Assembly (NCBI GenBank): GCA_027621175.1
Contig: JAQCCM010000004.1
Span: 1-64,000 of the forward strand
DNA length: 64,000 bases
Direction: 5' to 3'
DNA from: Bacteroidota bacterium
Lineage (GTDB): Bacteria > Bacteroidota > Bacteroidia > Flavobacteriales > Flavobacteriaceae
Below, piece by piece: positions 144 to 59,709 of the stretch. Below the pieces are notes generated by a model. That model was not told where the DNA came from and did no database searches. It saw only the letters and a program-made list of their open reading frames with translations. Position 1 is the stretch's first letter. Each line of letters opens with the position of its first letter. The position numbers and the translations under genes are program-made.

Positions 144-1202
144 CTAAACCATAGGCATATCTTCTTCTTTTAGTTCTGCTATTTCTAAACCTCTTAAATA
201 GGTTAGTGAAACGTTTAAACTTGAATGCCCCATAGCTCTTTGTAGCTTGTGTAATGACCCTGTTCTTTTGAATATCTCTATTGCTCCTGAATGCCTAAAA
301 GAGTATAGTGTTTGCCCTTGTATTAAGAGCCTACTTTTAGCTTTATATCTTCCCCATAGTGTTTTAAAATATTCAGGGTTTGGAGGGTCTACAAATCCTT
401 GAAATACACTTCCACAGTCTTCCTTTTGTAGAAAAGGTTTAATGTAACTTGGAATTGGTACAATTCTATTTCTTCCTGACTTATTTCTCTCACCAGAAAG
501 CCTAATCTCATTAAGCCCTTTTGATATGTCTCCCCAACATAATTCACGGATCTCTCTATGCGGTCTAAGTAAACATCCATAAGTGAGTAAACTACATAAG
601 TGTAAGTTTTTATTAAAGCTTTTTATCTCATCTAAAACAGCTCCTACATCATCAAAAGGTTTATGAAGTTTTGCCTTGTTTTTTTTTGAGGGAATACCTT
701 CCATTGGATTAGACTTCATCCCCTGTACTCTAGCCTCATTTATAAGGGCTTTTAGGTGCCGTTTAAGCGTGTTGTAAGACACTCCAGACGAATACCTTGA
801 CAGGACATTTTTAATGGCCTTAGAATCAACTTTTGAATTTTGGATTTCATCATGAATTAATCTGTAACAATAACTAAGCATGTCAGTATATTTTTTGGAA
901 TAACCACCACTTAGTTTTGTATCCAGGGCTTGCTTTAAATATTCAATGTCTGTGAACTTACCAGCTATAACTTTTTTAGATCTAAACTCTAAAAGTTTAC
1001 CATCATTTAAAAGGTGCTTGTAAACATCAGAAGCCAGAATCTTTCCCATTTCATATCTCTGCTCAATGGGGTGTCTGTTTGGATCAATGGATGAGTTGAT
1101 CCTCTTGCCGTTGTACAATCTAATCCTCTTTCCCTCTATAGAGAAAGACACATAAACAAGTTGTTTATTATCAATATGAACCTTTGGAAATCTTATTGTC
1201 AT
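144..1202 (-). CDS. Tyrosine recombinase / phage-type integrase
   Basis: 352 aa with C-terminal catalytic motifs (HREIRELCWGDI; TLYSFRHSGAIEIFKRTGSLHKLQRAMGHSSLNVSLTYLRG: R..H..GH..Y). Adjacent to a tRNA fragment. Confidence 0.9.
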   Translation of the reverse strand: MTIRFPKVHIDNKQLVYVSFSIEGKRIRLYNGKRINSSIDPNRHPIEQRYEMGKILASDVYKHLLNDGKLLEFRSKKVIAGKFTDIEYLKQALDTKLSGGYSKKYTDMLSYCYRLIHDEIQNSKVDSKAIKNVLSRYSSGVSYNTLKRHLKALINEARVQGMKSNPMEGIPSKKNKAKLHKPFDDVGAVLDEIKSFNKNLHLCSLLTYGCLLRPHREIRELCWGDISKGLNEIRLSGERNKSGRNRIVPIPSYIKPFLQKEDCGSVFQGFVDPPNPEYFKTLWGRYKAKSRLLIQGQTLYSFRHSGAIEIFKRTGSLHKLQRAMGHSSLNVSLTYLRGLEIAELKEEDMPMV

Positions 1203-1278
1203 TTGCCAGTGTTTTGCCAGTTAATAATTATCTAACTGTGCACTTCACTGGAAATAAATAAGTTATAAAAGATTGGTT

Positions 1279-1322
1279 CTTGACTGCCAGTCAAGCGCTC
1301 TAGCCAACTGAGCTACATCCCC
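1279..1322 (-). pseudogene. Truncated tRNA-Ala(GGC)-like gene (acceptor 5' strand, D-arm and anticodon arm only)
   Basis: The minus strand reads GGGGATGTAGCTCAGTTGGCTAGAGCGCTTGACTGGCAGTCAAG, then AACCAATCTTTTATAAC. There is no T-arm or acceptor 3' strand in the next ~70 nt. Confidence 0.7.
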
Positions 1323-1553
1323 AAATATTTTTTCGCCAACGGCGCCCTGCCGCTGATTTCAAGTATTTTTCTCTTTTTCGAGCATCAACTTGAGTAGCGT
1401 GTGTTTCAGTATGCACTACTTTCCAAGGCACATACGATTTTGTTGAGCGTACCTGACCTTTATTATGTGTTATAAGGCGTTGGAATACATTCTTCGACAT
1501 GCCCTATAATTGCAAGCTCCTTTTTCGCTATACAAGATATAAACAAAAAACAT
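1300..1553 (-). pseudogene. Decayed GIY-YIG nuclease-family ORF
   Basis: The minus strand starts MFFVYILYSEKGACN from ATG at 1551-1553. GHVE (YIGH-like) is in another frame, then NVFQRLITHNKGQVRSTKSYVPWKVVHTETHATQVDARKREKYLKSAAGRRW in the 1300..1500 frame. The last codons read through the tRNA 5' end. Confidence 0.65.
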
Positions 1554-1697
1554 TTTCACACGATTTCAATGAGCACTCCTCGCCCGTACCGAAGGCTACG
1601 TTCGGGCTGGTAACCAACTGAGCCCCGCCAGAACGATCTGTCGGGCTGGTACAGCCCCATAGCAGGCAAAAATAATCCTTTTTTCCTTTTGTTTTAT

Positions 1698-59368: not shown

Positions 59369-59453
59369 AGAATTTCTAAAGCCACTAAAGTACAATATAT
59401 TAGAAAACCACAAACAAGATTGCTTAAACTATTGGTGCAACAAAAAGTTTGTT

Positions 59454-59461
59454 TATTTTTG
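59454..59461 (+). promoter_or_regulatory. TATTTTTG -7-type promoter box upstream of the tRNA-Gln region
   Basis: Matches TAnnTTTG, 10 bp before the first TGGCCTA. Confidence 0.55.
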
Positions 59462-59470
59462 CAACCGCAT

Positions 59471-59601
59471 TGGCCTAAAGTTTAAGCTGCCAAAGGCAGC
59501 AAAGCTGGCAACACGCCTGCCTGCCGGCAGGCAGGTCTGATTCAAAATCAGACTTTTCCGGCAGAAGTGTAGCTTCTACTTTTAATTGAAGCTTGATATA
59601 T
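59471..59601 (+). repeat. Hairpin-rich mosaic with tRNA-Gln-like fragments
   Basis: TGGCCTA (59471), hairpin GCTGCC-AAA-GGCAGC (59486-59500), CTGGCAACACG (59505-59515, identical to the tRNA-Gln D-region), 20-bp palindrome (59516-59535), hairpin GTCTGATT-CAA-AATCAGAC (59535-59553). Confidence 0.7.
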
Positions 59602-59674
59602 TGGCCTATGGTGTAACTGGCAACACGTCTGATTTTGGTTCAGAAGAGTCTAGGTTCGAGCCCTAGTAGGCCAA
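59602..59674 (+). tRNA. tRNA-Gln(TTG)
   Basis: TGGCCTA…TAGGCCA acceptor stem, anticodon arm TCTGA-TTTTGGT-TCAGA, T-arm CTAGG-TTCGAGC-CCTAG. Confidence 0.92.
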
Positions 59675-59675
59675 C

Positions 59676-59709
59676 AAAAAACCCGCTCTAAATAGAGTGG
59701 GTTTTTTTA
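59676..59709 (+). terminator. Intrinsic terminator after tRNA-Gln
   Basis: AAAAAACCCGCTCTAAATAGAGTGGGTTTTTTT. Confidence 0.88.

Follow-up and report, generated by a model that had tools for sequence, protein, structure and literature searches.

In Neurospora mitochondria, GC-rich palindromes flank tRNA genes (Yin et al. 1981, as cited in PMC4478555), and the GC clusters of yeast mitochondria are longer (GC42) and bounded by short direct repeats (PMC4478555). The palindromes that we describe here, from one genus of Flavobacteriaceae, resemble the GC palindromes of Neurospora and yeast in being short, GC-rich, dispersed, located near tRNA genes, capable of merging and thought to be mobile. Unlike mitochondrial GC clusters, they are bacterial and lie inside tRNA copies, and unlike the yeast clusters, the single pair of filled and empty sites found here shows no target duplication. 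They are also comparable to REP elements and the Rickettsia palindromic elements (PMC3733652), which are likewise dispersed palindromic mini-elements of bacteria, but they differ from these in being low-copy, in lying inside tRNA copies and in that no Y1 transposase was detected in the genomes with this palindrome at tRNA-Gln.

Small GIY-YIG open reading frames (ORFs) also occur at tRNA loci of this genus. They recall the free-standing GIY-YIG homing endonucleases encoded, for instance, by T4-like phages, in their small size and in their variable presence at a fixed site (tRNA-Ala); unlike them, they form a putative cassette between an altered and an intact copy of a bacterial tRNA gene, and none was found at the tRNA-Gln loci examined. 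The direct-repeat copies and recombinational loss seen here are shared with ordinary tandem tRNA duplication and decay, from which the arrangement differs in that its core has stayed conserved despite near-saturated divergence and that palindromes occupy loops and helix junctions. Among the open-access papers listed in our searches, none describes GIY-YIG genes lodged in bacterial tRNA copies, and none is relevant to GIY-YIG at the tRNA genes of Bacteroidetes or Flavobacteria; the palindrome string was not found in this literature either. Within that open-access scope, novelty is provisional.

The leader of the tRNA-Gln gene

We analysed a window of 64,000 nucleotides from a draft genome (G000; 86% complete, 42 contigs). 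The tRNA-Gln gene at 59602-59675 is the only one detected in this incomplete assembly, and it is preceded by a leader whose pieces are colinear with the intact tRNA over the acceptor strand, the D-arm and the anticodon arm (Table 1). The promoter box, tRNA-like pieces, hairpins, palindrome and tRNA listed in an earlier note on this DNA were all recovered at their positions by direct reading and a repeat search. Boxes of the TTGG and TATTTTTG type are the promoter consensus of the phylum Bacteroidetes; a scan for sigma-70 promoter and terminator consensus sequences, which does not cover Bacteroidetes promoters, returned none. The upstream copy, which can no longer form a tRNA, lacks the 3' acceptor strand and is reported by neither ARAGORN nor Rfam. 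At the gathering score, Rfam finds only tRNAs in the window and no known leader RNA such as a T-box or a group I intron, and a comparison of the leader with plasmid records gave three weak matches, all within the tRNA part.

Table 1. Coordinates of the features discussed in the text. Positions refer to the window unless a locus is named.
Feature	Position	Strand	Remarks
Putative Bacteroidetes-type promoter	59432-59461	+	TTGG 59432-59435, 18-base spacer, TATTTTTG 59454-59461; read directly
Copy of tRNA-Gln 5' acceptor strand and D-arm start (TTGGCCTAAAGTTTAA)	59470-59485	+	82% direct repeat of 59600-59616
TTGGCCTA, acceptor-strand portion of tRNA-Gln copy	59470-59477	+	read directly
D-arm portion of tRNA-Gln copy, hairpin insert included	59478-59515	+	colinear with intact tRNA
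Hairpin insert in D-loop of copy, GCTGCC-AAA-GGCAGC plus AAAG	59486-59504 (hairpin 59486-59500)	+	read directly
Copy of tRNA-Gln D-loop/D-stem (CTGGCAACACG)	59505-59515	+	11-base identity
Perfect 20-bp palindrome CCTGCCTGCCGGCAGGCAGG	59516-59535	.	lies precisely between positions 26 and 27 in the tRNA numbering of the copy
Anticodon-arm copy TCTGA-TTCAAAA-TCAGA, loop altered	59536-59552	+	hairpin GTCTGATT/AATCAGAC spans 59535-59553
Leader tail: decayed T-arm region and weak hairpin AGCTTC/GAAGCT adjoining tRNA	59553-59601	+	
Intact tRNA-Gln(UUG)	59602-59675	+	ARAGORN; Rfam RF00005, 63.6 bits
Terminator-like hairpin AAAAAACCCGCTCTA/TAGAGTGGGTTTTTT	59676-59707	+	inverted repeat
Altered tRNA-Arg copies	L143 1120-1310	minus	also L214, L247-L255
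GIY-YIG ORFs by tRNA copies	L210, L211, L225 (tRNA-Ala); L214, L251, L143 (tRNA-Arg); L209 (tRNA-fMet)		
Filled and empty palindrome flanks, 20-bp palindrome	L174 1330-1400 and 1785-1830		

We compared the leader with 2000 dinucleotide-shuffled versions of itself. An 11-base word in common with the tRNA occurred in 2 of the 2000 shuffles, a colinear chain of at least 19 bases in common with it in 3 of 2000, and a perfect 20-nt palindrome in none of 2000. The predicted folding of the leader has a z score of -4.0. The earlier note had described the last hairpin of the copy as resembling an anticodon arm. This hairpin is indeed present at 59535-59553, but its loop is TTCAAAA instead of the TTTTGGT of tRNA-Gln, and it matches the reverse complement of the tRNA-Gln anticodon arm at 16 of 18 bases. 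The altered loop thus makes the arm closer to the reverse complement than to the arm itself.

The tRNA-Gln locus across the genus

We searched 17 genomes of the genus and found the tRNA-Gln locus in 14 of them. The same promoter boxes, at near-equal spacing, lie upstream of tRNA-Gln in all 13 congeners compared, and this conservation supports a predicted 5' leader of ~135 nt in the window, where ~130 nt had been proposed before. The arrangement seen in the window recurs in three congeners (G002, G007 and G008). Aligned across these relatives, the leader does contain duplicated tRNA segments, which agrees with the proposal in the earlier note that it holds a partial tandem duplicate of tRNA-Gln. 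The copy of the acceptor strand and D-arm start is identical to the tRNA in all three. At the site of the D-loop insert, G007 and G008 carry a different, partly paired sequence, and G002 carries no insert. G002 thus provides a view of the unoccupied site, as would be expected if the copy had been interrupted by small palindromic elements, as was also suggested earlier. The altered anticodon-arm copy has one and the same sequence in each of the four copy-bearing genomes. In G008, T-arm letters (CTAGGTTCGA) are kept after the anticodon arm, indicating that the original duplicate extended further.

The remaining loci lack the copy. Five genomes (G003, G006, G009, G010 and G016) have the promoter, a few bases and a single tRNA-Gln, with no leader, and in four of these five the single-copy junction reads ..CATTGGCCTATGG, which fits recombination between two copies. 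Another five (G001, G005, G012, G013 and G014) have a leader of ~60-75 nt with no clear tRNA pieces; the last ~20 bases of these leaders match the tail of the window leader in several genomes. A tree of the adjacent gene, the deepest forks of which are weak, places G006 as the sister of the window genome and G002 next. With the leaderless G006 in this position, repeated loss of the leader is probable. Judged from these sequences, the leader is dispensable, several relatives having apparently lost it exactly, as recombination between copies would do. Beyond the genus, 15 tRNA-Gln loci contained no extra partial copies and only one full tandem pair, carried by G036 (L118), a same-order relative. 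A different insert lies upstream of tRNA-Gln on the minus strand of L112 (G003), where ~100 nt containing a hairpin-like repeat are placed in the promoter region between direct repeats of AAACTATTGGTGCAA.

Conservation of the leader core

The core of the leader, formed by GGCAACACGCCTGCCTGC and GCAGGCAGGTCTGATTCAAAATCAGAC (45 bases), is identical in four of four genomes, and the tail diverges freely. Divergence at fourfold sites of the adjacent upstream gene is 61-63% between the window genome and G007 or G008, 56-69% for the other distant pairs among the four copy-bearing genomes, and 32% for the closer pair G000/G002. An identical 45-base core at 56-69% fourfold divergence is not accounted for by drift. 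Gene conversion with the intact tRNA could account for the acceptor and D-arm letters, but not for the palindrome and the altered arm, such that selection or exchange among relatives would be needed.

Partial copies and GIY-YIG genes at other tRNA loci

Partial copies of tRNA-Arg, tRNA-Gly, tRNA-Leu and tRNA-Ala in the genus also bear palindromes at loops or helix junctions. G000 and G008 carry a 5' copy of tRNA-Gly whose anticodon arm is altered; G001, G002 and G007 carry a 3' half copy in which a palindrome immediately precedes the T-stem. G002 and G006 have a copy upstream of tRNA-Leu(UAG), with a palindrome at the border of D-loop and stem, and G000 has one downstream of it that bears two such inserts. 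Of 12 genomes examined, 10 have an altered copy upstream of tRNA-Arg(UCU), the exceptions being G005 and G015. Most genomes conserve the D-arm and the changed anticodon arm of this copy well, and a palindrome is present at positions 9/10 in some and absent from G007, G009 and G014. This altered tRNA-Arg copy, with the anticodon arm TTCCGATTTYCAATCGGAA in most genomes, is situated between tRNA-Ser and tRNA-Arg and is strongly conserved.

Small GIY-YIG ORFs (PF01541) lie between or beside tRNA-Ala copies in G006, G007 and G014, tRNA-Arg copies in G000, G001, G008 and G014, and tRNA-fMet copies in G014; one more is found downstream of another tRNA-Met in G001. The stop codons of the ORFs at L209-L211, L225, L214, L251 and L143 fall inside or directly beside tRNA sequence. 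At tRNA-Ala of G007, a promoter is followed by a palindrome-bearing 5' tRNA copy, the GIY-YIG ORF and the intact tRNA, and the ORF ends at a TAG within the tRNA sequence. At the same gene, G002 and G008 have scar leaders that retain only the last codons of the ORF, and G010 and G011 have an empty site. This series indicates that tRNA leaders in the genus can be scars of GIY-YIG cassettes. A GIY-YIG gene was absent at every tRNA-Gln locus examined; the tail of the tRNA-Gln leader, with its frames read by eye, held nothing convincing as the end of a GIY-YIG ORF, and the GIY-YIG protein had no matches among plasmid records. In the window itself, a decayed GIY-YIG cassette lies at tRNA-Ala(GGC) (1249-1655, minus strand). 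It comprises a 5' tRNA-Ala copy, interrupted at positions 9/10 and in the D-loop by palindrome-like inserts, and a nuclease remnant with in-frame stops, and the tRNA-Ala 5' half is severed by unrelated sequence and adjoins a tyrosine-recombinase gene (144-1202, PF00589).

Origin of the leader

We favour, at a probability of about 0.7, the reading that the leader is a relic of a tandem tRNA-Gln duplication, namely the modified 5' two-thirds of a second gene, made from the tRNA promoter. In an ancestor within the genus, tRNA-Gln would have been duplicated at its own promoter. The downstream copy would have kept its function, and the promoter-proximal copy would have lost its 3' half, gained palindromic mini-inserts in an unpaired loop and where the D and anticodon helices meet, and changed its anticodon loop. 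Transcription from the original tRNA promoter would yield it as a folded leader that is presumably removed by RNase P, and several relatives would then have lost it exactly via recombination between the copies. This order of events depends on a tree whose deep forks are weak. The identity of the core at 56-69% fourfold divergence should not be found in a mere relic, and we regard the leader as a tolerated, putatively co-transcribed relic, the core of which is kept by some maintaining process.

The partial copies that flank a GIY-YIG gene at other tRNAs make a tRNA-directed nuclease cassette a plausible source of the duplication, for tRNA-Gln perhaps, and by analogy. A specific version of the favoured explanation is that the leader is the scar of a GIY-YIG cassette that once lay between two tRNA-Gln copies, for which we would give somewhat less than one chance in three. 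The tRNA-Ala cassette, with its promoter, palindrome-bearing 5' copy, ORF and intact tRNA in this same order, provides the model and has left scar leaders in G002 and G008, but the tRNA-Gln leader contains no recognisable GIY-YIG remnant, and the T-arm letters of G008 directly after the anticodon arm leave little space there for a past ORF. An attachment-site scar is far less probable. tRNA genes are classic attachment sites, and a lost tyrosine-recombinase island using tRNA-Gln could have left such a copy; a tyrosine recombinase (PF00589) is present at the tRNA-Ala locus of the window (144-1202). However, no recombinase gene was seen beside tRNA-Gln among the ORFs of the window read by eye, the insert totals only 131 bp and is alike in four genomes, and the ~1.5-kb flanks of the relatives revealed no island. 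Chance similarity or an assembly error might be suspected in an incomplete draft, but it has a negligible probability, given that the arrangement is common to four separately assembled genomes and that shuffled leaders rarely or never match the copy and the palindrome.

A regulatory role was also weighed. The leader could be a selected RNA that holds the tRNA-Gln precursor inactive by refolding until it is remodelled or cut, with the TTGGCCTA strand and the anticodon-like hairpin pairing with the 3' acceptor strand and anticodon arm of the tRNA. Consistent with such a model are the conserved 45-base core, the 16 of 18 leader bases complementary to the anticodon arm, and the predicted acceptor-stem probability, which is 0-0.14 with this leader in all four genomes and 0.94-0.99 in genomes without it. 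In 36-49% of trials, however, shuffled leaders of the same composition also bring the acceptor-stem probability under 0.5, which makes the refolding prediction weak. Moreover, any tRNA copy would pair likewise with its own tRNA, the tRNA-Arg copy has an altered arm that does not complement tRNA-Arg, and close relatives have no leader. We consider this model unlikely. Antisense pairing as a general rule for the copies was rejected on the tRNA-Arg case.

Returning to the favoured duplication, the survey of the genus adds several features to the earlier note: the genus-wide arrangement, the involvement of several tRNA genes, the apparently repeated and traceless loss, a core conservation far exceeding neutral expectation, and the GIY-YIG loci at tRNA-Ala, tRNA-Arg and tRNA-fMet. 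Here, tRNA genes seem to be targeted by an invader of a small and poorly described type. Both the small palindromes and a minimal nuclease gene apparently use tRNA genes as large islands classically do, borrowing the promoter of the tRNA and, in the tRNA-Ala case, a stop codon that lies within the tRNA. Tentatively, and at odds of little better than one in four, the genus may host tRNA-targeting elements that consist of an altered copy with junction hairpins, with or without a GIY-YIG gene, in which the copy is selected and of which the tRNA-Gln leader is a form without an ORF. Equally speculative is the selected role that the altered copy might play in such an element, as a decoy for the nuclease target, an immunity site or a control of expression. 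If true, the occupied, decayed, scarred and empty sites in close relatives would permit study of a minimal element persisting within essential RNA genes. The locus would also be a case of an apparently essential single-copy tRNA that is made, as predicted, from a long, strongly folded precursor.

The palindrome family

Relatives of the palindrome with at most 3 mismatches number 7 in G000 and 24 in the genus, and a reversed control gave none. Nine of the 24 genus cases lie inside tRNA copies (20 of the 24 were inspected), where ~1% would be expected near tRNA genes. All placeable insertion sites are loops or helix junctions, which has a chance of ~1% if the eight sites, a small sample picked by eye, are independent. 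On contig C28 of G000 (L174), a GIY-YIG gene separates a palindrome site from a palindrome-less copy of its flank; the two sites show that the palindrome was gained or lost exactly, with no target duplication. Searched against Rfam at E values up to 1, the related loci gave tRNAs, and all else fell below the family gathering scores. Y1 transposase (PF01797) was found only in G003 and G004 and in none of G000, G002, G007 and G008, all incomplete drafts; within that limit, it was rejected as the palindrome agent. At L197 and L198 (G010 and G008), one palindrome is inserted exactly mid-way into another member of the same family. Contigs C2, C3, C4, C7, C10, C12, C27 and C42 of G000 terminate at tRNA genes or in their close vicinity; repeats at these places may have disrupted the assembly.
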